A stretch of DNA of 64,000 nucleotides from Halapricum desulfuricans. Its GTDB lineage: Archaea > Halobacteriota > Halobacteria > Halobacteriales > Haloarculaceae. A program made the position numbers and the translations under genes. Location of the stretch: contig NZ_CP064787.1 in the NCBI RefSeq assembly GCF_017094505.1, positions 1,550,001 through 1,614,000 of the forward strand. The letters are read 5' to 3'. The notes below the pieces were generated by a model that ran no database searches, was not told the origin of the DNA, and saw only the letters and a program-made list of their open reading frames with translations. Shown piece after piece: positions 46,036-56,712 of the stretch. The stretch's first letter is position 1, and each line of letters opens with the position of its first letter.

Positions 46036-47173
46036 GCTTCAACCCCACGAGGGTCCGTCTGAAACGCGGGTCGGCGTGATCGTCACCTCTTGCAGGACGC
46101 CGCTTCAACCCCACGAGGGTCCGTCTGAAACGCGGGTCGGCGTGATCGTCACCTCTTGCAGGACGCCGCTTCAACCCCACGAGGGTCCGTCTGAAACGAC
46201 TCGCCGGACCAACCCGGCGCGGAAATGATGGCTTCAACCCCACGAGGGTCCGTCTGAAACCACTTTTTGGTCCCGCAGCGCGGCAGCTACCCCGAGGCTT
46301 CAACCCCACAAGGGTCCGTCTGAAACAACCGAAACGTCGACTGTGTCGGCCGATGAGAGGTGCTTCAACCCCACGAGGGTCCGTCTGAAACGCCGAGGCC
46401 AGCCGATCGCGGACCCTCATACTGGCGCTTCAACCCCACGAGGGTCCGTCTGAAACTAGGAGATTATATAGACAAGTTGATCGACACAGGCTTCAACCCC
46501 ACGAGGGTCCGTCTGAAACCCCTCTAACCCAATCTGGCCGTCAACGCCGTAATCCGCTTCAACCCCACGAGGGTCCGTCTGAAACCGCACCGATTGCTTT
46601 GAGTCCTTGAGCGAGTCGTTGGCTTCAACCCCACGAGGGTCCGTCTGAAACGGTCCACAGATGCTCGGTCGCGTTGCTGTTCGCGCTTCAACCCCACGAG
46701 GGTCCGTCTGAAACCCGACGACGACTCCGACGAGGTCTTGCAGATCCGCGCTTCAACCCCACGAGGGTCCGTCTGAAACGAGCGGGACAAACTCGGGCAC
46801 GTCGATGTCCGTGCTTCAACCCCACGAGGGTCCGTCTGAAACCGGGCATCGCCGTCATCCCACCGACGAACGCGATGAGCTTCAACCCCACGAGGGTCCG
46901 TCTGAAACGAGCCGATCCTCGGCGGCTATCTCAACCGCAATACCGCTTCAACCCCACGAGGGTCCGTCTGAAACGCGTACCGGAGGACGTCGACGAGGAC
47001 GACATGGGGCTGCTTCAACCCCACGAGGGTCCGTCTGAAACCGGCGGTTCGGCGAGCCAGACGGCGTCGATGTCGCTGCTTCAACCCCACGAGGGTCCGT
47101 CTGAAACGTCTATGAAGGCGATCAATGGAAAGTGATGCTTGAGGCTTCAACCCCACGAGGGTCCGTCTGAAAC
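46036..47173 (-). CRISPR. Type I-B CRISPR array, 18 repeats of 30 bp, 17 spacers
   Basis: The plus-strand repeat reads GCTTCAACCCCACGA then GGGTCCGTCTGAAAC. Repeats start at 46036, 46102, 46168, 46231, 46297, 46362, 46427, 46490, 46556, 46622, 46685, 46750, 46813, 46879, 46945, 47012, 47078 and 47144. Spacers are 33-37 bp. All repeats are identical except the one at 46297 (one G to A). The two spacers at 46066-46101 and 46132-46167 are identical. By the haloarchaeal handle (GTTGAAGC at the crRNA 5' end), transcription is on the minus strand and the leader is on the right, next to cas2. The perfect repeats point to a recently active or maintained array. Confidence 0.98.
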
Positions 47174-47275: not shown

Positions 47276-47539
47276 TTACAGAAATTGGTCGTCTTCGGCG
47301 GGATCCTCGCCGTAGACAGTCCGAGTGACGTACTTTTCGGAGGTCATTCGATAGAGGATCACTGATTCGTCGGCTTCGAGCATCGATTCAAGTGTGTGCT
47401 TGACTTCTTCGACATCACCTTCGGTCAGTTCCCCCTCGAATACGGAGTTCTGAACATGAGTGAGATACTTCCGGAGGAAATTCAGGAAGCGATACGTCCT
47501 CTCTGCCTGTACGTCGTAGACGACGATCACGTACACCAC
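47276..47539 (-). CDS. cas2: CRISPR-associated endoribonuclease-like Cas2
   Basis: An 87-residue Cas2. MVYVIVVYDVQAERTYRFLN carries the conserved Asp9, and NSVFEGELTEGDVEEVKHTL is the typical middle part. Cas2 forms the bridge between Cas1 dimers during spacer integration. It lies 1 bp after the cas1 stop. It is full length, unlike the second copy at 48475-48744. Confidence 0.95.
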   Translation of the reverse strand: MVYVIVVYDVQAERTYRFLNFLRKYLTHVQNSVFEGELTEGDVEEVKHTLESMLEADESVILYRMTSEKYVTRTVYGEDPAEDDQFL

Positions 47540-47540
47540 G

Positions 47541-48305
47541 TTACCACCACCGCTCGAACGGCTCGTACGCCTCGCCCGCGAGGAGGTGTTTCTTGATTTT
47601 ATACGCTTCCAAGCGTAGGAGGTACTGATAACTCACCTTGCGATTGAGGTTCGGATGCTCAATCGTCTCCTCTAGCGTCTTCTCAAACTCTTTGGAGTAC
47701 GTCTCACGCCCGGATTCGGTGAGCAGACAGGAATTCAGCTCCGTCTGGAAGTCACCTTCACGAAGCTGCCCGCGGTTCACGAGCCGAAAGAGCACACGGT
47801 CCGTCAGGAGCGGTTTGAACAGATCTGCGATGTCCAGCGCAAGCGAATATCGACGTTCTCCCGGTTCGTGGAGATAGCTGATAGTGGGATCGAGTGCCGT
47901 CGCCCTGATCGCTGAGACGACACTCGCATAGACTAGGCTATTGCCGAACGAGATCAGGCTGTTTACCTTGTTGTCTGGAGGATTGTACTGGCGGCCGTTG
48001 AATACAAACCCTTCTGGAAGGATCTCGTCGAACGTCGCGTAGTAGGCTCTGCGTGCGCTGGCTTCGACGCCCATCGCCTCGTCGACTGACTCGACTGTCT
48101 CGATCTCGTCTCGGCGTCTGTCGAGGGCATCGAGTGTGCTACCGAAGTCGTAGTCTCGATTGTCGTAATAGGAGACGTTGGCCCGCATGTTGTGGATGCT
48201 TCCCGAGACGAACTTGATAGCGATACGTAGCCGATGGTCTGAATCGTCGTACGCACGCACCTGTTTGACGACGGTCTGACCCGAGGTCTGGCCGCGCTCT
48301 GGCAT
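47541..48305 (-). CDS. cas1: CRISPR-associated integrase Cas1, N-terminal domain missing
   Basis: A 254-residue protein that matches haloarchaeal Cas1 from the segment just after the N-terminal beta domain (MPERGQTSGQTVVKQVRAYD) to the usual end. Family members are about 330 residues, so roughly 75 are missing. The catalytic residues are retained: Glu81 in GVEASARRAYY, His146 in SYLHEPGE and Asp158 or Asp161 in LALDIADLF. Upstream of the only ATG the frame runs into a CRISPR repeat and stops in the spacer behind it, so no longer start exists. The truncation removes the domain needed for Cas1 dimerisation and Cas2 contact, so new spacer uptake is probably lost. Confidence 0.85.
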   Translation of the reverse strand: MPERGQTSGQTVVKQVRAYDDSDHRLRIAIKFVSGSIHNMRANVSYYDNRDYDFGSTLDALDRRRDEIETVESVDEAMGVEASARRAYYATFDEILPEGFVFNGRQYNPPDNKVNSLISFGNSLVYASVVSAIRATALDPTISYLHEPGERRYSLALDIADLFKPLLTDRVLFRLVNRGQLREGDFQTELNSCLLTESGRETYSKEFEKTLEETIEHPNLNRKVSYQYLLRLEAYKIKKHLLAGEAYEPFERWW

Positions 48306-48315
48306 GATTGAGCCG

Positions 48316-48409
48316 GCTTCAACCCCACGAGGGTCCGTCTGAAAGTGTCAGCGGCTCCGTGTTCATCGACGAGTCCATGGCTTCAACCTCAGAAGGGGCC
48401 GTCTGAAAC
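48316..48409 (-). CRISPR. Mini-array of two repeats and one spacer inside the cas operon
   Basis: The repeat at 48316-48345 is canonical except for its last base. The repeat at 48380-48409, next to the second leader, has four changes. The spacer is 48346-48379 (34 bp). The mini-array lies exactly where cas4 and the 5' part of cas1 should be, and the left repeat ends 10 bp before the cas1 ATG. Confidence 0.9.
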
Positions 48410-48474
48410 CATGGCCAATTCAGGCCATATAGGATCTGCTGGGCGGTGCTGGGACTTAGCATTTGCGTCGACCC
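48410..48474 (-). promoter_or_regulatory. Second CRISPR leader (diverged copy)
   Basis: It resembles the main leader: ATGGCC-6-GGCCAT at 48411-48428 next to the repeat, then on the minus strand GTCGACGCAAATGCTAAG, close to the main leader's GTCGACGAAAACACTAAG. It could still drive the mini-array and, through it, cas1 and cas2. Confidence 0.65.
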
Positions 48475-48744
48475 TCAATAGCCCTGAAACCCTCGGGGTC
48501 GATGAAAGAGCTGTAGAAACTGACTGTCTGCCGCTAGATTCTCGCCGTGGACCGTCCGCGAGACGTACTGCTCGGAACTCATCCGGTACACGATCACGGA
48601 CCCCCCAGGATCCAGCATCGATTCGAGCTGTTCCTTGACCTCTTCGAGATCCCTCTCCGTTATCTTGCCCTCGAACATCGAATTCTGCACGTGCGTCAGA
48701 TACCGGCGCAGGAAGTTCAAGAACAGCCGGGTCCGGTCGGCTGC
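48475..48744 (-). pseudogene. cas2: 5'-truncated second copy of cas2
   Basis: The minus strand from 48744 reads AADRTRLFLNFLRRYLTHVQ and onward, about 70 percent identical to the intact Cas2 over 69 residues. The first eleven residues, including catalytic Asp9, are replaced by the end of cas3, and the stop codon is lost, adding a tail of 12 residues. The divergence shows it came from a different CRISPR-Cas locus, not from a recent local duplication. It overlaps the cas3 3' end. Confidence 0.85.
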
Positions 48745-51338
48745 TCCTGACCCAGTTTCCGAATCCCGGACCCATCGGCCAGATCGTAACTGTCCGACTC
48801 GCGGGCATCAACGACGACCAACTCCGGCAGTTCGACCGGATCGATGTCCGTTTCCTGCACGACGAATGCCTGCAGGTCGTTTTCAGGAGCGGCGCGAACG
48901 GACGCCATGAGATAGTTCAATCGGTCGAACAGCCTCGATGCGCGTGCATACGAGTTCCGGGTGCGGGCCCGAATGTACTGCTTCAGGAGAGCCGCGTCAG
49001 CATCGTCGGTGATGACAAGGACGTCTTCTGCGTCGTCTTCGATGAGCGACGCCTCCCGCAGTCGGTCGCCGTCCGCTTCGTCAACGGCCCTGGCAAGCGA
49101 GTCGGTCTCGACTGAACGGTTGTCGTCGCTGTGTAGCCGCTCGTAATATCGCTCGACACCCGTCGAAACCATCTCCCGCTCCGGAATATCGCGGCCGTGT
49201 GTTTCGACGAGCGACTCTAGAGCGTATGTGGTCGGTCTGAGCAGGTTCCCGTCGATCCGGTAGATCGAGGACGGCGGTGGATTGTCGTCGATCCCTTGTA
49301 AACGCCAGAGCGTCACCGTCGCTGTCTGGCCACCGAACGACCGGTTACACCGACCCGCCGCCTGCACCACGGACGGGATTGGAGCGTAATCCCGGTACAG
49401 GCGATCGAAGCTCACGTCGACGCCGGCCTCGACCAGCTGTGTCGAGGAAATCACCAACGCGCGATCGTCGATCGGCGTCTCCGCATCGTCATCGAGAATC
49501 CGTCTGATTGCCTCGATCAGAATCGACCGATCGACTGGGCGCAGTGCCGTGCTGAGTGTCCCGACGAGCGTCTCTTGTTGCCCTTCGACGTGCTCTGCGA
49601 CCGCTGAAAGGTACGCCGATACGGTGTCGTCGAGTCGCTCGTCACCCTCGTCGACAGCTGTGAGCAGGTCGTGGTCAGTCGCTGTTCGAAACTCACCGAG
49701 GACGCGACCTAGCGAGACAACGCGCGTTCCGTTTCGTCCGGCTATTTCGACGAGTTCGTGGTAGAGTTGTCTCGCGGCACGAACGGTGTTGGACACCACA
49801 AGGACCGACCCGATTGTCTCTCGACGTAGTTCCGTCGTCACGTGCGTAGCCGCTTCATGAACGCTGATTCCACTCTCGTCGTTGGCCGTGAGATGTGAAA
49901 CGACGGAGTCGTCGAGCTCGAACCGGACGCGCTCGTGCTCCGCGAGGAAATCGAAATACGACGTTGCATCGGGAATCAGTTCCGTCGGGTCGAGTTCCGG
50001 ATGTGTCTTCGAGATGATTCCGGGCTGGGTCGCAGTCATCAGGATCAGCGTCGCATCGTACTCCTCGACAAGGATCGTCGCAAGCCGGCTCACGAGATAC
50101 CACCACTCGCTGCTCAGCGCCTGCGGTTCGTCTACTACGATCACGCTGTCCTGCAGTGCGGGCAACTTGATTGATTGTGTGTTCTGTGGACCAGCGAGGC
50201 TCTCGAACAGCTGCACAAACGTCGTCAAAACGAGCCCCGCTTGCCAGGTTTTTCCGTACAGGACTTCCGAACCGTCCGCGATTCGCTCTTCTCCGTCGCC
50301 AACTCGTGTCCGCGTATCAGCGAGATAGTGGTGGAGTGTATACCGTTCGCGATCCGGCGTCACGTCGAGTCGCTCGGTAATCTCGTCGTGAACCTGATCG
50401 ATGACAGTCGTGAACGGAAGCGCGTATATGACGCGACCGTTTGTGCGCTCGGCCTCGGCGAGGGCCGCCTCGAGTCCGGCAAACGTCTTGCCGAATCCGG
50501 TGGGCAGCGTCAGCGTGAACACCGATTCGTCGTCTCTCAGTGTTTCGAGCTGGCGGGTCGCATCCCGACGCGCAGTGGTGCGTTTGTCGTTGAGCGTTGC
50601 GAGTACTCCATCCGCATCGGTGTCGAACTCGATCTGATTCCGATCCGGAAGCTGTGGCGGCCCCGACTGGATTTCGAGACCTGCAGCGTTCGTCTTGTCA
50701 GCACAGACAAGTGTCGACCAGAGCCGAAGTACGAGCGGGTAGAACTCCGCCGAGTTCTGTGGTGAGAAACTAGACGGCAGTGCTTTCGGGTACACCATCG
50801 GCTGATCGACAAACACGTCGTCCCACCCCAGTGAACCATCAGTTGCCCGCTGAAGTATCTCGTCTGCGATCGCGGGAACGTGATCGTCGATATTCTGTAA
50901 TTGCTCGCTGACACGCCGTGGTCGGTCCGCGTCTACTCCAGTTGTCGAGGAATATCTGTTGTGGTTCGTGTCGAAATCAGGCAACACGCCGTGATGTTTC
51001 GCGACCGCGTAGAATCCAGCGAGCTTGATATCGCCTGGTACGCCCATGCTATCGAGTGCATGAAACGTGAGATACGCGCTTGTCAGCGAATGGCGCCTGT
51101 ACAGAGACGAGCGCGAACAGGAGTCGCCTTTGTGGATATACTCCTGAAACCACTGTGTAAGCTTCCCGATATCGTGCACTTCGCTGATGGTCGTAATGAC
51201 CGATTCGAGCGTCCAGCCGTCGGCGACCGCTATATCGTCGGGCGTGAGGTCCTTCGCGTTCGTTCGCACACCTGTCAGATGATCGTCAAGCGTTTGGTTC
51301 GGGCGTGCGAGCAGTTCGTCCCGTGTTCGATAGACCAT
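48717..51338 (-). CDS. cas3: CRISPR-associated helicase/nuclease Cas3 (HD plus helicase)
   Basis: An 873-residue fused Cas3. The HD nuclease has SEVHDIGKLTQWF (His55, Asp56), RRHSLTSAYL and VAKHHGVLPD. The superfamily 2 helicase has the P-loop TLTLPTGFGKTFAGLE (near 278), the DExH-like VVDEPQAL, LMTATQPG, and motif VI PSVVQAAGRCNRSF. It degrades DNA bound by Cascade. The last residues (KLGQEQPTGPGCS) are read from sequence belonging to the truncated cas2 copy, so the natural C-terminus was replaced at a recombination joint; the core is untouched. It starts 1 bp after the cas5 stop. Confidence 0.95.
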   Translation of the reverse strand: MVYRTRDELLARPNQTLDDHLTGVRTNAKDLTPDDIAVADGWTLESVITTISEVHDIGKLTQWFQEYIHKGDSCSRSSLYRRHSLTSAYLTFHALDSMGVPGDIKLAGFYAVAKHHGVLPDFDTNHNRYSSTTGVDADRPRRVSEQLQNIDDHVPAIADEILQRATDGSLGWDDVFVDQPMVYPKALPSSFSPQNSAEFYPLVLRLWSTLVCADKTNAAGLEIQSGPPQLPDRNQIEFDTDADGVLATLNDKRTTARRDATRQLETLRDDESVFTLTLPTGFGKTFAGLEAALAEAERTNGRVIYALPFTTVIDQVHDEITERLDVTPDRERYTLHHYLADTRTRVGDGEERIADGSEVLYGKTWQAGLVLTTFVQLFESLAGPQNTQSIKLPALQDSVIVVDEPQALSSEWWYLVSRLATILVEEYDATLILMTATQPGIISKTHPELDPTELIPDATSYFDFLAEHERVRFELDDSVVSHLTANDESGISVHEAATHVTTELRRETIGSVLVVSNTVRAARQLYHELVEIAGRNGTRVVSLGRVLGEFRTATDHDLLTAVDEGDERLDDTVSAYLSAVAEHVEGQQETLVGTLSTALRPVDRSILIEAIRRILDDDAETPIDDRALVISSTQLVEAGVDVSFDRLYRDYAPIPSVVQAAGRCNRSFGGQTATVTLWRLQGIDDNPPPSSIYRIDGNLLRPTTYALESLVETHGRDIPEREMVSTGVERYYERLHSDDNRSVETDSLARAVDEADGDRLREASLIEDDAEDVLVITDDADAALLKQYIRARTRNSYARASRLFDRLNYLMASVRAAPENDLQAFVVQETDIDPVELPELVVVDARESDSYDLADGSGIRKLGQEQPTGPGCS

Positions 51339-51339
51339 A

Positions 51340-52110
51340 TTAGATGAAACAGACTGTACTCTCGCCGACCTGTGATGCCGGTACGCCAGAGACTTGGACT
51401 GAATCTCCGTCTGGCGGGTACGCGTACGAGAGAAATTGCGTCGTCTTCCGTCCGTCGCCGTCCCACGTCATGTACTGGGGGGTCCGCTCGATCGAGTACG
51501 AGACTCCCGGTTGCGGACTGATGAGGTCCTCCGGAACGATCGAATCGATTGTGTCAGCACTCTCGACCGCTTCGACGGTATTTTCCTCGACATCGCGGAC
51601 CTCTGCCAGGCACTCCGATTTGCCGAGATACGGCGTGTACACCGGCCTCGGCCCATCGCCATTGATACCGAGTCGGTCGGCCAGTTCTTCCTCGAACGAG
51701 TCGTCCGTCAGGACGACATGCACCCGGAACGCCGCGTCACGAAGGTACTCGAAGGAGCGGCGTTGGCGCTTTGCTTCGAGCACTTCAGGCGGCACAAGTG
51801 TCTTTCCCGAAACGCCGTCCGCCTGCTGTATCTCGTTCTCGGTCGTCGGTAGCGTGAGCATCGGAACCTGCATCGTCCGAACCGGCTGCGTTGGTTCGAT
51901 TGCGATTGCCGATGAATCCGCATCAAACGTCTCGTAGTAGGAATCCCGTGCTCGACCGAGAATCGCCGCGATCAGCCCTGCAACGGTCGTCCGAGGCATC
52001 ACACGATAGGTCTGCTTGTCAGTCGTCGTATCGATCCGTCGGAAGTGCGCCCACGGACCGTCGACGGTGAACGAAAGACACCGACGACCCTCTGTGTCTA
52101 CGTTCGTCAT
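51340..52110 (-). CDS. cas5: Cascade subunit Cas5 (I-B)
   Basis: A 256-residue RAMP protein. CLSFTVDGPWAHFRRIDT near the N-terminus and YRVMPRTTVAGLIAAILGRA are the typical Cas5 parts. In Cascade it caps the 5' handle of the crRNA. The ATG at 52110 overlaps the cas7 stop (TGATG); a GTG one codon upstream is the alternative. Confidence 0.93.
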   Translation of the reverse strand: MTNVDTEGRRCLSFTVDGPWAHFRRIDTTTDKQTYRVMPRTTVAGLIAAILGRARDSYYETFDADSSAIAIEPTQPVRTMQVPMLTLPTTENEIQQADGVSGKTLVPPEVLEAKRQRRSFEYLRDAAFRVHVVLTDDSFEEELADRLGINGDGPRPVYTPYLGKSECLAEVRDVEENTVEAVESADTIDSIVPEDLISPQPGVSYSIERTPQYMTWDGDGRKTTQFLSYAYPPDGDSVQVSGVPASQVGESTVCFI

Positions 52111-53141
52111 CACTCTTGATCGGGGTGGACGTCGATGACAGTGACGTTATCTTCCCCGACACGGGATCGCAGCTTTTCGTAGAACGCTTCTGGCCCATCG
52201 TTCCCGGCGAAATCGAACTGCACGTAGTCGTCGGCGATCACATGCACTGTTTCGATATGATCCGCGTCGTTCTCCAGTTCATCGAGTAGCCCGCTCACAT
52301 CGAGCGTGCAGTCTCTGATATTACGGAGTTCGGTGTCGGTCTTGTCGTCGGTATCGAGTTCAACGCCGTGATCGAGCGACCCGCTGTGATAGGAGTCCGT
52401 CTCGTACTCAACCCGAAGGTAGACGCGAGGTTGGTGACCCATTTTCGAACGCGTGAGCGTCTGGTTCTTGAGTCCTCGCCAACAGAGCCTGTCGAGGCGC
52501 TCGACATCGTCTTGAGTGAGATGCGTCGCTTCAGCGGCGTTCTCGTTGACGACGCCGTGGAATTTCACGAGGGCGTATTCCAGGCGGTTATCGGTCGCAA
52601 AGGTCCCTTGCTCTTCTTCACCACCACTGGCAACGACCGTCGAGAGCTGCTTCGATTCTGTCTTCGTGGCGACTGTATGCATGCTTCGCCCGTGTTCGAA
52701 CTGGACTGGACCGATGAACTGACCGGGGAAGTCATCACCGAGTAGGTCCTGGAAATTAGACGAGAACGAACACGTTGCGCCGAAATACCGGACGTCTGTG
52801 GCGTTCGTGAGGAACAGCTCTGCCGCATCTTTGCTGGCCATGTCTTCCAGCTCGTCCTCGTCCGTCCCTGTGACCCGCTTGAACAGCCCATCTCGGTCGG
52901 GAACGTCCTCATACGGCGCTTTCGAGGGGTTTCTGACGTAAATCCCGTAGCCGTCGTCGTCAAGCTGATCGCGGATATACCGCTTTAGACGGACATCAGT
53001 GACGACTGCTTCCCCGGTCGTCTCGTCCACACGTGGTTTGTCGTTAGCCGATAGCGGGTTCCCGTTCGGGTTGCAGTCGCTGGCGTCGTACAGGAACACG
53101 ATTTCTGAGCGGTTCTCGAGCGTGGTGGGTTCATCAGACAT
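52110..53141 (-). CDS. cas7: Cascade backbone subunit Cas7 (Csh2)
   Basis: A 343-residue protein with the Csh2/Cas7 start EIVFLYDASDCNPNGNPLS, then TDVRLKRYIRDQLDDDGYG and DVRYFGATCSF. Several copies coat the spacer part of the crRNA, flipping out each sixth base. A GGAGGA ribosome-binding site precedes the ATG by 7 nt. It lies 3 bp after the cas8b stop. Confidence 0.95.
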   Translation of the reverse strand: MSDEPTTLENRSEIVFLYDASDCNPNGNPLSANDKPRVDETTGEAVVTDVRLKRYIRDQLDDDGYGIYVRNPSKAPYEDVPDRDGLFKRVTGTDEDELEDMASKDAAELFLTNATDVRYFGATCSFSSNFQDLLGDDFPGQFIGPVQFEHGRSMHTVATKTESKQLSTVVASGGEEEQGTFATDNRLEYALVKFHGVVNENAAEATHLTQDDVERLDRLCWRGLKNQTLTRSKMGHQPRVYLRVEYETDSYHSGSLDHGVELDTDDKTDTELRNIRDCTLDVSGLLDELENDADHIETVHVIADDYVQFDFAGNDGPEAFYEKLRSRVGEDNVTVIDVHPDQE

Positions 53142-53144
53142 GAA

Positions 53145-55322
53145 TCATTCCTCCGTGGAGTCTTCGGTAATGTTTTCGTCAGTGTCGCTGATTCCGTATG
53201 CGATACCCAGAGCGTAGAGCCACTGGAGTTCGTTCTGAGTGAACTTCCAGGTGCTCGGATCAGACTGGAGCATCAAGTTCGGCAGCCGGTTGACGTACCG
53301 TGCATTGTACTGGCTGCCAAGCTCGTCCTCGCTTTCGATATAGGTGTTGTTCATCTGCAGGACCTCGTTGGTGACCTCCTTGATCGACTGAGTCGTGAGA
53401 TAGTCGATCGGATATCGACGGACGAGCGTCGAAGAGACGTCATTGCGGCGCTGTAGCGTCGTGATCCGTCCGACGAGCCCGCCGAGAAGGAATACGGCCT
53501 GTCGACTCTCCTTCTGAAGCACTTCGTGGCTGTTGAGGAACTCCTGCAGTCGTTCGTCACGCGATTCGTATTCGGTGTCGTGAGTGATCGGTTGCACGTT
53601 TGCGATTGTCGCTGTCGGTGTCGATTCCAGCACCCCGGCGTCGGACAGGGCGCGGAACTGTGCGTACTGAGCGAGAATGTCGAAGACCGGAACGCCGTTG
53701 CCTTCTCCATCAAATTCTGACCGCTGGCTCTGGACGAGTTGGTGGACGTACTCTTCCAGCAGCGTCTCCGGCACGATCGTCTCGCCGGTCAGGAACTGGC
53801 GCATCCGACGGGCACGACTGTCGTCGATATCTCCCGCTTTCGGCGTTTCGCTGGCTTCGCGGCTCGATCGCGTCGGCTCTGTCGTCCGGACGAAGTACGA
53901 CCCGAACAAGAGCTCTCCGTGCAATCGTGCGTCTCGACTGAGAAGCGGTGACTGTGCGCGACGCAGCGTGCTCGAAAAGAGCCCGAACTCGCCGAATGGA
54001 CGCTCGTTGAGGATGTGCCGGTGTGCTTGTTCGACCTCTCTTGGCCGATAACGCGGTGCGTCGATTGTATCGAATAGCAGTCGGTTCGGGTTCCCGCTTA
54101 CGACCAGGGCCGTCGCAAATCGGACACTTCCGAAGGCCTCGTCGCTATCTATACCGAACGAGATTTCCTCTCGCTCACCGGCTTCCTCGACCCGTTGGTA
54201 TAAATCGACAATGACATCTTCAAGATCGTCCTGATCGGCGTCACGAAGACGGGTGTAGACAGTGTCAACGAACCAGTCAAAGTCAGCCGGAGAAAGCGCA
54301 GAGGGTGGACCAGACAGATACGGCAGGACGTACAACCGTCGGCTCTGACCGAGTCCGCGATAGAACTCCTCAAAGAGGTTGTTGGCATCAGCGATAGCAG
54401 CGGCCGTTTCGTGGCTGATCGGTCGCGATCGCCACGCGTCCGAACCATCAACTGACAGGTCCGGGAAATGTTCTCGCTGTTTTTTCCCGTACATCCCGAA
54501 CAGGCCTGCTGAACCACCCGTGACGCGGTCCTGTTCATTGGTTACGTAGCCGGCTCCCTCCCCACCTGCGCCTTCGACCGACATGGACTCCAGCCGTTCC
54601 GACTTCTGTTCGACCATGACCTCGTTCAGGACCGGTATCTCACCCGGGTATCGGTACTCGTCGTCGTCCGGCAGCTTCACCCGAATCGTGATCAACGACT
54701 CCAGTTCGTACGTCTCGTCACCACCGACCTCTCGCAGGAGCCCGTCTTTCGCGCGTTCCATCTGCTCGTCATCATCACCGAGCTCGGCGAGTGCTTCGAT
54801 GATCCACGTCGCTCCGCTGTCATCCCGTTCGATGACAGTCTGCGCGGCATCACTCTGTGCCCACCCCGTAAACCTGTCTTGGACGTTATTTGTTCCCCAG
54901 GCGTCGTCGCGCATCCCTGCGATGTGGTGAGCATCAGCCGACTTCTGGGTCGTGACCGAATAGTCGGTCATGCTGCTGGTCTTGTTGGCTGGATAGGAAT
55001 GGCCGAGCTTGAATCGAAGATCTTCTGTCGCCTGTGTGATTCGTACGGGACGGTCAGCCCGTAGCTGCGGGTTGTCAGGGTCGCTGAGATCAACGAAGAT
55101 CTCGACGAGACTCTCGTCTTCACCGAACAGCTCGTTCTTGGCGGCCGGCGTCATGAACGACAGATGGCGCGGAGCCAATTCGAAGTCTATTTGCCCTGCT
55201 GTGACTGTGTCGTACCATTCTAGAATCGAATACTGGACCCCGATGTCGTAAAACGACGCGGGACGGCGCTGTGGTAACCGTTCCAGGGCCTCTTCAGCCC
55301 GATCCAGTCCGTTACTCGTCAT
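53145..55322 (-). CDS. cas8b: Cascade large subunit Cas8b
   Basis: A 725-residue I-B large subunit of the haloarchaeal type. It begins MTSNGLDRAEEALERLPQRR and ASFYDIGVQYSILEWYD. It recognises the PAM and recruits Cas3. The family is poorly conserved and I assign it by size, position and general resemblance to haloarchaeal Cas8b. Its start overlaps the cas6 stop by 11 bp, so there is no intergenic space between cas6 and cas8b, where the CreTA module of Haloarcula hispanica lies. Confidence 0.9.
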   Translation of the reverse strand: MTSNGLDRAEEALERLPQRRPASFYDIGVQYSILEWYDTVTAGQIDFELAPRHLSFMTPAAKNELFGEDESLVEIFVDLSDPDNPQLRADRPVRITQATEDLRFKLGHSYPANKTSSMTDYSVTTQKSADAHHIAGMRDDAWGTNNVQDRFTGWAQSDAAQTVIERDDSGATWIIEALAELGDDDEQMERAKDGLLREVGGDETYELESLITIRVKLPDDDEYRYPGEIPVLNEVMVEQKSERLESMSVEGAGGEGAGYVTNEQDRVTGGSAGLFGMYGKKQREHFPDLSVDGSDAWRSRPISHETAAAIADANNLFEEFYRGLGQSRRLYVLPYLSGPPSALSPADFDWFVDTVYTRLRDADQDDLEDVIVDLYQRVEEAGEREEISFGIDSDEAFGSVRFATALVVSGNPNRLLFDTIDAPRYRPREVEQAHRHILNERPFGEFGLFSSTLRRAQSPLLSRDARLHGELLFGSYFVRTTEPTRSSREASETPKAGDIDDSRARRMRQFLTGETIVPETLLEEYVHQLVQSQRSEFDGEGNGVPVFDILAQYAQFRALSDAGVLESTPTATIANVQPITHDTEYESRDERLQEFLNSHEVLQKESRQAVFLLGGLVGRITTLQRRNDVSSTLVRRYPIDYLTTQSIKEVTNEVLQMNNTYIESEDELGSQYNARYVNRLPNLMLQSDPSTWKFTQNELQWLYALGIAYGISDTDENITEDSTEE

Positions 55323-56085
55323 GGTCCTGTATATTCACGAACCCGAACCCGAGGCTGTTCCGTTCTCCAATCCCGACATCAAGCGCCAGATTCAGGTGCC
55401 GTCTGTGATCGTCGTCTCGAACTGTGTAATCGAACCGCCACTTGCTCAATACCCATGTCTCCGTTTGGCCGGTCGTCGGCTCAACGGGGATAGCAAAGGT
55501 TTTGAGTAGCTCGTAGCCGTCGAACAGGTCGCCCTTGACTTCGGATGGCCCGGGCAGGTACTCCGGACAGTACAGGTCGTGTTTCTTGTCCAGATTGGCC
55601 TCGAGCTGGTTTCGGAACGGTTCCATCGTATGTTCGGGCCGCCAGAACTCGGCTTCGTCGTGGTCGATATCCAGACCGTACGCCTCAAAACGCCAGGGCG
55701 GGATCCGCACGAGGACGCCTGTTCCGGTCTCGATCGTTCCGGACGTTCCGGGATCGCCGACATCCGGAGCTACCGGTGTGAGTTCCTCGACGTGGAACGG
55801 CATCTCGCCGATGTTCAACTCGCGGTTGTCTTTGAGATCCGCGGCAACGTACGCGAGTAGCTCCTCCTCGGGCGACGCGATCAGCAACGTCCGCTCGTCC
55901 CCCTCTCTCATGTCCTCGGGGGGAAATGGATTCGAGTAGACGAACGGCATCGGTCGATTCTCGTCGTGCAAGTCGTCGTACGGACTGTCCTCGAGCGCAC
56001 CCCAGATTCGGCCCTGGAGCTTGTGGTGGTACGTGTTGTCGTAGGCGGTGTCTCGCCGCGCTCGCAAGCGAGCGAGTATTCGCAT
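55312..56085 (-). CDS. cas6: crRNA-processing endoribonuclease Cas6
   Basis: A 257-residue RAMP nuclease. Candidate catalytic histidines are in DNTYHHKLQGRIWG (His20/His21), and the glycine-rich loop GIGERNSLGFGFV closes the protein. It cuts the repeat to leave the 8-nt handle GTTGAAGC. The ATG at 56085 follows a GGAGGA site by 8 nt. First gene of the cas operon. TTATAA at 56148-56153 is the likely TATA box, giving a leader of about 35-40 nt. Confidence 0.93.
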   Translation of the reverse strand: MRILARLRARRDTAYDNTYHHKLQGRIWGALEDSPYDDLHDENRPMPFVYSNPFPPEDMREGDERTLLIASPEEELLAYVAADLKDNRELNIGEMPFHVEELTPVAPDVGDPGTSGTIETGTGVLVRIPPWRFEAYGLDIDHDEAEFWRPEHTMEPFRNQLEANLDKKHDLYCPEYLPGPSEVKGDLFDGYELLKTFAIPVEPTTGQTETWVLSKWRFDYTVRDDDHRRHLNLALDVGIGERNSLGFGFVNIQDHDE

Positions 56086-56147: not shown

Positions 56148-56153
56148 TTATAA
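56148..56153 (-). promoter_or_regulatory. TATA box of the cas operon
   Basis: TTATAA about 65 bp upstream of the cas6 start and 27 bp downstream of the relic repeat at 56181-56204. The start site would be near 56122. Confidence 0.55.
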
Positions 56154-56182
56154 GGGTCATTGTATCGTAGTGAAAGTGGGAC

Positions 56183-56247
56183 CCCACAAGGGTCCGTCTG
56201 AAACTGTACCCTGACTTAGCCAATAGAATGGCTCGGCTAGCTTCAAC
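56183..56247 (-). ncRNA. CreA-like guide RNA (degenerate mini-CRISPR)
   Basis: Two degenerate repeats flank a 35-nt guide (56205-56239). The upstream repeat (56240-56270, minus strand) has decayed except for its last eight bases, GTTGAAGC, identical to the crRNA 5' handle of the array. The downstream repeat (56181-56204) keeps 21 of the 22 bases of the 3' handle (from GTTTCAGACGG to GTGGG, one C to T in the loop) and has lost its own handle. The mature RNA after Cas6 cutting would be 65 nt (8+35+22). A minus-strand ATAAAAG box at 56289-56295 would start transcription near 56267, at the edge of the first repeat. This is the architecture described for CreA antitoxin guides. The guide pairs with 56610-56630. 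Confidence 0.8.
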
Positions 56248-56288
56248 TGCAATCTGCGCCTTCTGGATACTGTGGTGCTGCCAGGGTA

Positions 56289-56295
56289 CTTTTAT
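56289..56295 (-). promoter_or_regulatory. Putative promoter of the CreA-like RNA
   Basis: ATAAAAG on the minus strand (GACATGATAAAAG context), 25 bp upstream of the expected start near 56267. Confidence 0.5.
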
Positions 56296-56313
56296 CATGT
56301 CTTAGCCTCTATT

Positions 56314-56418
56314 TTACTCCTTCGACTCTTCGTGCTCGCTACGTGGCTTTGCTCTGATGTGCCCTCGCTTTAGCCAGTTAATGGTCGGTTCGTCTTCTTC
56401 GGTGTGGGGTGGTCTCAT
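56314..56418 (-). CDS. Small ORF of 34 residues with strong ribosome-binding site
   Basis: An ATG at 56418 preceded at 8 nt by GGAGGAGG (56427-56434), the strongest Shine-Dalgarno in the region. The frame reads MRPPHTEEDEPTINWLKRGH and ends ...SEHEESKE. The second codon is the rare AGA, and CTA, CGA and a second AGA follow. No family is recognised. A TTATTA box inside the palindrome at 56464-56481 could be its promoter. It lies between the CreA-like gene and the guide target, so it is one candidate for the controlled (CreT-like) unit. Confidence 0.4.
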   Translation of the reverse strand: MRPPHTEEDEPTINWLKRGHIRAKPRSEHEESKE

Positions 56419-56463
56419 ATCTTGAGCCTCCTCCTGCACCCGAAACTACTATCCAGAAGGAGA

Positions 56464-56500
56464 CCCCAGTAATAACTGGGGCCGCTCCGGAGTAGTCCGG
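56464..56500. repeat. Two adjacent stem-loops
   Basis: CCCCAGT-AATA-ACTGGGG at 56464-56481 (7-bp stem) and CCGGA-GTAG-TCCGG at 56487-56500 (5-bp stem). On the minus strand the first loop reads TATT within TTATTA. Confidence 0.7.
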
Positions 56501-56514
56501 ATAGCAGGCTCACT

Positions 56515-56558
56515 CATCCAACACGCGAGATGCCTGGACAGCCAACGCGTGTTGGATG
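56515..56558. repeat. Perfect 13-bp inverted repeat with 18-nt loop
   Basis: CATCCAACACGCG at 56515-56527 and its exact reverse complement at 56546-56558. It forms a strong hairpin on either strand, 52 bp from the guide target site. It may be a structured RNA or a relic of a mobile element. Confidence 0.75.
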
Positions 56559-56609
56559 GCCGCTGACGCAGCATTGGCAATGTACGGATGTATCCCATTT
56601 ATTTCTTTT

Positions 56610-56633
56610 GCCTATAGATTGGCTGGGCTAGAA
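56610..56633 (-). promoter_or_regulatory. Target site of the CreA-like guide with TTC PAM
   Basis: On the minus strand, TTC (56633-56631) is followed by 21 bases that match the guide in the blocks TAGCC, AGCCA, TCTAT and GGC, with mismatches only at positions 6, 12 and 18. The site covers a TATA-like CTATAG on the plus strand (56612-56617) and lies about 30 bp downstream of TATATA (56662-56667) read on the minus strand. Bound Cascade would block transcription in either direction. Confidence 0.8.
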
Positions 56634-56644
56634 GTATCCACAGG

Positions 56645-56668
56645 ATGGCCTTTCTATCCCATATATAG
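56645..56668 (+). other. Mini-ORF downstream of the guide target, CreT candidate
   Basis: If the CTATAG at 56612-56617 is a TATA box, a plus-strand transcript would start near 56640 and meet ATG at 56645 almost at once. The frame is seven codons (M-A-F-L-S-H-I) and contains the rare codons CTA and ATA just before the stop. Known CreT toxins are short RNAs whose mini-ORFs trap scarce tRNAs. The fit is suggestive only; there is no clear ribosome-binding site. Confidence 0.25.
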
Positions 56669-56712
56669 GTATGATCCAAACAGATTTGCAAAATCACACC
56701 CACCCGTCCGAA

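Follow-up and report, generated by a model that had tools for sequence, protein, structure and literature searches.

A candidate CRISPR-repressed toxin module with a conserved peptide gene upstream of the type I-B cas genes of Halapricum desulfuricans

Results

Upstream of a type I-B cas6 gene, the haloarchaeon Halapricum desulfuricans carries an element resembling creA, the guide RNA gene of CreTA toxin modules. We analysed it in a stretch of 64,000 nucleotides (nt) of contig NZ_CP064787.1 (positions 1,550,001 to 1,614,000; hereafter the window, whose numbering is used throughout); all features mapped below lie on the minus strand. The element is a mini-CRISPR (clustered regularly interspaced short palindromic repeats) consisting of a degenerate first repeat (psiR1, 56240–56269), a 35-nt guide (psiS, 56205–56239) and a second repeat (psiR2, 56175–56204). 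Against the repeat of the nearby CRISPR array, psiR1 matches at 10 of its first 22 nt and at all of its last 8 (GTTGAAGC), and psiR2 at 21 of its first 22 nt and 3 of its last 8. The end of psiR1 (56247–56240) would thus supply an 8-nt 5′ handle and the start of psiR2 (56204–56183) a 22-nt 3′ handle, the latter an exact copy of one array repeat (46297–46326). The two repeats share 13 of 30 positions, matching the psiR1/psiR2 similarity pattern reported for haloarchaeal creA. By analogy with the handles of published CreA RNAs, we predict processing to a mature CreA RNA of 65 nt (56183–56247). A first-pass annotation of this DNA had described the two-repeat mini-CRISPR, its handles (8/8 and 21/22) and its 35-nt guide exactly.

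The CreA target lies at 56610–56630. Eighteen of 21 positions match the guide, the mismatches fall solely at positions 6, 12 and 18, and the seed (positions 1–5 and 7–11) is paired at 10/10; this is the sixth-base pattern of the first-pass annotation, recovered in full. Directly before the target stands TTC (56631–56633), a I-B protospacer adjacent motif (PAM) according to the haloarchaeal CRISPR literature. We scored the pair on 18 positions plus 2 for TTC, over a 641-bp region and both strands, and found that it reaches 20 while the best of 2,000 shuffled guides reached 15. The 2.94-Mb genome has PAM plus seed (TTC+TAGCCNAGCCA) at a single place, and in a whole-genome search with the 21-mer every site besides guide and target had at least three mismatches. 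A TATA-like element of a presumed toxin promoter, CTATATAT, was picked out by eye at 56661–56668 from this sequence rather than aligned across all relatives; its position would place the transcript start near 56637–56641.

Between target and guide lie two predicted hairpins and a small gene. Hairpin 1 (56515–56558) has a perfect 13-bp stem, CATCCAACACGCG/CGCGTGTTGGATG, and hairpin 2 (56433–56508) ends just before the Shine-Dalgarno region. They are followed by a mini-gene of 34 codons (56314–56418), MRPPHTEEDEPTINWLKRGHIRAKPRSEHEESKE, preceded by GGAGGAGG; it is the presumed toxin gene. The first-pass annotation had named no toxin.

Is this arrangement conserved? We gathered loci with the window Cas6, from the family and from named genomes, and searched 392 genomes of the order with a profile hidden Markov model (HMM) of the small reading frame. 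Nine matches reached E ≤ 1e-12, all adjoining creA and cas6; among matches with E > 0.001, two genomes (G085 and G230) carry creA, and no creA was found at the six remaining ones. Ten related haloarchaeal loci have the layout of the window, each with its own guide matching its own target at similar distances. The first family loci are the window and L033, L038 and L044, in which the guide lies 145–158 nt and the target 539–560 nt upstream of cas6. Members from other families are L062, L063/L078 (Natrinema gari), L064, L066/L096 (Halococcus morrhuae) and L118 (Natribaculum breve), with two weaker members carrying creA (L139 and L142). One related locus belongs to Halomicrobium mukohataei DSM 12286 (a contig of that genome is the plasmid of the strain, with 100% identity across the 6 kb that were compared), and another lies just before cas6 on plasmid pNG400 of Haloarcula marismortui ATCC 43049, where the mini-gene is unannotated.

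When each guide was compared with each locus in a nine-locus matrix, all seven perfect 10/10 seeds fell on the diagonal (the window and six others), and two off-diagonal pairs outside Natrinema reached 9/10. At L142 (G230) the target is on the opposite strand, with a perfect seed read by eye. Thus, guide and target covary across 11 loci, and the strongest support for the window pair is this comparison, ten other loci having pairs of their own. Loss of the match in related genomes that keep both partners, the outcome named beforehand as refuting the first-pass annotation, did not occur. That annotation correctly placed the element upstream of cas6 and contrasted this with Haloarcula hispanica; the position is not unusual, as the related loci and Halobacterium hubeiense have it there too.

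All 11 loci carry, between target and guide, a reading frame of 30–60 amino acids with the core PTxNWxxRGH (aligned as P-T-x-N/D/S-W-x-x-x-G/S-H, T being replaced by F once). A conserved mini-ORF alone does not prove a peptide: in Acinetobacter such a frame belongs to an RNA toxin that is inactivated by synonymous changes (PMC10097628), which is why a codon test matters here. In pairs of nine divergent loci, differences fell at 66% of third, 39% of first and 31% of second codon positions (P = 9e-5). The mean BLOSUM score per codon was 3.49 in frame 0, against 0.20 and 0.12 when the remaining two frames were read; none of 2,000 column permutations reached the frame-0 value, and the core holds 225 synonymous codon differences among loci. 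As far as codon comparison can tell, this pattern is selection acting on the peptide, because amino acids were kept while synonymous codons drifted.

The leader behaves differently. We folded the 160 nt ahead of each start codon and compared them with shuffles; all 11 loci gave z values between −2.0 and −7.2, the window lying at −7.2, with a common layout of a first hairpin followed by a longer second stem near the start codon. The reading frame itself shows no unusual folding stability. Hairpin 1 recurs at the same place with other stem sequences; indeed, stem sequences differ among most loci with pairing preserved, and no sequence motif shared by the 11 leaders rose above shuffles. Thus, in these comparisons constraint acts on the shape of the RNA and on the sequence of the peptide.

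Searches with the peptide returned little: no credible match in Pfam or PADLOC, no NCBIfam match to the window copy, weak Protein Data Bank matches only (E ≥ 0.16), and no relative in viral contigs. Among plasmids we found only H. marismortui pNG400 (E 0.4 when the window sequence alone was the query) and one weak match from Streptomyces. Host mimicry by the peptide was rejected, the own genome giving no further match below E = 0.5. Sequestration of rare-codon tRNAs, the mechanism of two other CreTs, was likewise rejected: across loci, no tandem AGA, AGG or AUA codons are conserved close to the start.

A complete Cascade set adjoins the module: cas6 (55312–56085, TIGR01877), cas8b (53145–55322, TIGR02591), cas7 (52110–53141, TIGR02590) and cas5b (51340–52113, TIGR02592), followed by cas3 (48717–51338, TIGR01587 and TIGR01596). 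Between creA and cas6 lies a promoter-like stretch, CACTTTCAC...CTTATAA, containing a TATA-like element (TTATAA, 56148–56153) of what would be a promoter of cas6 itself; related stretches occur upstream of cas6 in relatives that lack the module, so transcription of cas6 may be independent of the targeted promoter.

The array found by array search (46036–47173, repeat GTTTCAGACGGACCCTCGTGGGGTTGAAGC) includes two identical repeat-spacer units, a 66-nt duplication, at 46036–46167. The locus has a broken adaptation module (47276–48760), while the Cascade genes and cas3 are present: Cas1 (47541–48305) lacks about 73 N-terminal residues, no cas4 was seen between cas3 and cas1 in the window locus, and in place of the missing parts 48316–48723 holds a cas2 fragment, a leader-like stretch and two repeats. 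Damaged adaptation beside a complete set of Cascade genes fits addiction to Cascade; in published work, Haloarcula hispanica cells without cas1–cas4 left the H. hubeiense toxin unreleased. The argument is only suggestive, because a second I-B-like locus of the same genome (C1 935000–950500), with different repeats (GTTCCAGACGAACCCTTGAGGGATTGAAGC), encodes a full-length Cas1. The Cas6 of that second locus is 45% identical to the window Cas6, and no creA-like guide-target pair was found within 1.5 kb upstream of its cas6.

Other relatives show further arrangements upstream of cas6. At L120 and L093, creA-like elements have, upstream and in place of the mini-gene, a gene for a protein of about 100 amino acids. 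Guide and target pair well at L120 (9/10 seed, TTC) but only weakly at L093, whose protein shows a weak resemblance to a winged helix (E 0.016). These are possibly other CRISPR-repressed proteins. L040 carries a different creTA-like element 377–131 nt upstream of cas6; in it, ATGAGA follows a purine-rich stretch, and there are two near-targets (9/10).

Discussion

What does the module do? That a CRISPR-repressed toxin module of some kind lies here we regard as very probable. Specifically, we consider it likely that this is a CreTA-type addiction module in which CreA-Cascade represses a peptide-type CreT. A promoter near 56670–56640 would give a transcript with the two-hairpin leader and the 34-codon gene; Cas6 would cut CreA out of the degenerate mini-CRISPR (56269–56175), and CreA would guide I-B Cascade to 56633–56610, blocking the toxin promoter. 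Loss or inhibition of Cascade would release the gene, whose product would stop growth, so that cells would be addicted to Cascade. The effector would most likely be the PTxNWxxRGH peptide, made from a structured leader, rather than an RNA that sequesters tRNA; we think it probable, with some reserve, that the peptide holds this role. The first-pass annotation proposed silencing of a toxin RNA promoter. Its target, with a candidate TATA-like element, stands, but "RNA" may name the wrong kind of toxin, the likely one being the peptide gene at 56418–56314 with its hairpin leader.

Published strains bear on this reading. The CreA RNAs of H. mukohataei and H. marismortui were sequenced and have 8-nt and 22-nt handles (PMC8501985), and the creT genes of both lowered transformation of H. 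hispanica about 10^4-fold (PMC9458426). The homology of these modules gives the CreTA-like part of the first-pass annotation, which proposed a CreTA-like addiction or regulatory module, good support that goes past mere analogy. Natrinema sp. J7-2, a published strain that we take to be close to N. gari, may belong to the same type.

Several points weigh against a peptide CreT under CreA control. (i) The promoter positions and start site, CreA processing and repression in H. desulfuricans, toxicity of the mini-gene and the role of the peptide as toxin are all inferred, and the promoter elements were read by eye. (ii) The published creT toxicity belongs to constructs that may extend beyond the mini-gene and cannot be pinned on it. 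(iii) The characterised CreTs act as RNAs, and the conserved mini-ORF of Acinetobacter is part of an RNA toxin. (iv) Not every locus is perfect: two Natrinema loci have 9/10 seeds with their own and each other's targets, the G085 pair has a 9/10 seed, the PAM of N. gari is GTC, and at L062 (G177) the mini-gene begins with ATA, not ATG. L062 also has an imperfect guide-target seed and more than one TTCTTRTTAGG-like near-target; its module is possibly decaying or multi-site.

The most serious alternative is a CreTA module with a toxic RNA, in which the structured leader and translation start would be the toxin and the mini-gene merely its translated part. The very stable two-hairpin leader at 11/11 loci speaks for it, as do the CreTs of H. 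hispanica, H. hubeiense and Acinetobacter, RNAs in which hairpin and start codon matter, and the Acinetobacter mini-ORF is conserved without being a protein toxin. In our loci, however, amino acids are conserved with free synonymous drift, the opposite of Acinetobacter, the leader has no common motif, and tandem AGA or AUA near the start is not conserved. We regard a toxic RNA as possible but clearly the less likely effector. A peptide that serves not as a toxin but as a regulator or an accessory of Cascade, and is kept repressed while Cascade is abundant, is favoured by its tight linkage to the I-B locus and its lack of similarity to known toxin families; we doubt this strongly, as the creT genes of homologous modules are toxic, with the reservation about construct limits given above. 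Slightly weaker still is CreR-like autoregulation, in which the guide would repress the cas genes through a promoter at 56670–56600. Type I systems do have known CreR RNAs, and the site precedes cas6 on the cas-coding strand, where readthrough into cas6 is possible. But it is about 545 nt from cas6, the conserved cas6 promoter-like stretch lies downstream of creA and is present in module-less relatives too, the mini-gene always stands between target and guide, and the target site is unique in the genome. The regulatory half of the first-pass proposal is therefore unlikely. Finally, a degenerate relic or a chance match that lacks any function, for which one could cite repeat remnants without a complete module (L036, L037), is contradicted by the shuffles, genome uniqueness and independent guide-target covariation and can be set aside with little hesitation.

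The remnants at L036 and L037 are lone psiR2-like repeats about 100–125 nt upstream of cas6, before the cas6 promoter and without psiR1 or guide, and a possible scar of a lost module. When the DNA of the region was searched for directly in five further genomes of the genus, a repeat fragment in one of them was all that turned up.

New here are the two-hairpin leader and the conserved PTxNWxxRGH mini-gene at all 11 loci, as found by comparison; in the parts of the CreTA literature consulted for comparison, such a peptide is not described as a toxin class. On balance, with only a slight lean, we propose that some haloarchaeal CreTA modules, two experimentally studied ones among them, employ a conserved toxin peptide of 30–60 amino acids with this core, made from a two-hairpin leader. 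If true, CRISPR-repressed toxins would include a peptide type that stands between the all-RNA type VIII systems and CrePA. In the literature, CreT toxins are called highly diverse, their mechanisms mostly elusive and their prediction by homology largely impeded; a 2022 paper excepts only H. hispanica and H. hubeiense as to mechanism. Peptide and leader together form a searchable signature that links modules from three families of haloarchaea, extends to at least two studied strains whose CreT mechanism is elusive, and makes the question of RNA or peptide answerable by a few point mutants.

How does the module compare with known systems? The closest are the homologous CreTA modules of H. mukohataei and H. 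marismortui, which share the order target, hairpin leader, mini-gene, psiR1/guide/psiR2 and cas6, the peptide core and similar spacing; the window differs in its guide and target and in an almost undegraded psiR2 (21/22). In the sections of their CreTA papers considered, we met no discussion of the peptide. The H. hubeiense CreTA resembles the window in its two psiR, its position upstream of the cas operon, its TTC PAM and its seed (1–5 and 7–11). Its CreT, however, is a six-codon AUA-AUA RNA toxin with a stem-loop after the ORF, whereas the window has a longer conserved peptide gene after hairpins, and its PAM, unlike that of the window, lies in the complement of the B recognition element. 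The H. hispanica CreTA shares Cascade-guided repression through partial complementarity but sits between cas6 and cas8, with one psiR and an AGA-AGA RNA toxin. CreR shares a CRISPR RNA-like regulator close to the cas genes, but acts on the cas promoter and, as a rule, has no toxin gene coupled to it; given the separate cas6 promoter-like stretch and the intervening mini-gene, we did not assign the window to it. CrePA is like the window in having a protein product under CreA-Cascade repression. CreP, however, typically has a KilA-N domain and blocks cell division, whereas the window product is a 34-residue peptide with no Pfam match, which places the module outside CrePA.
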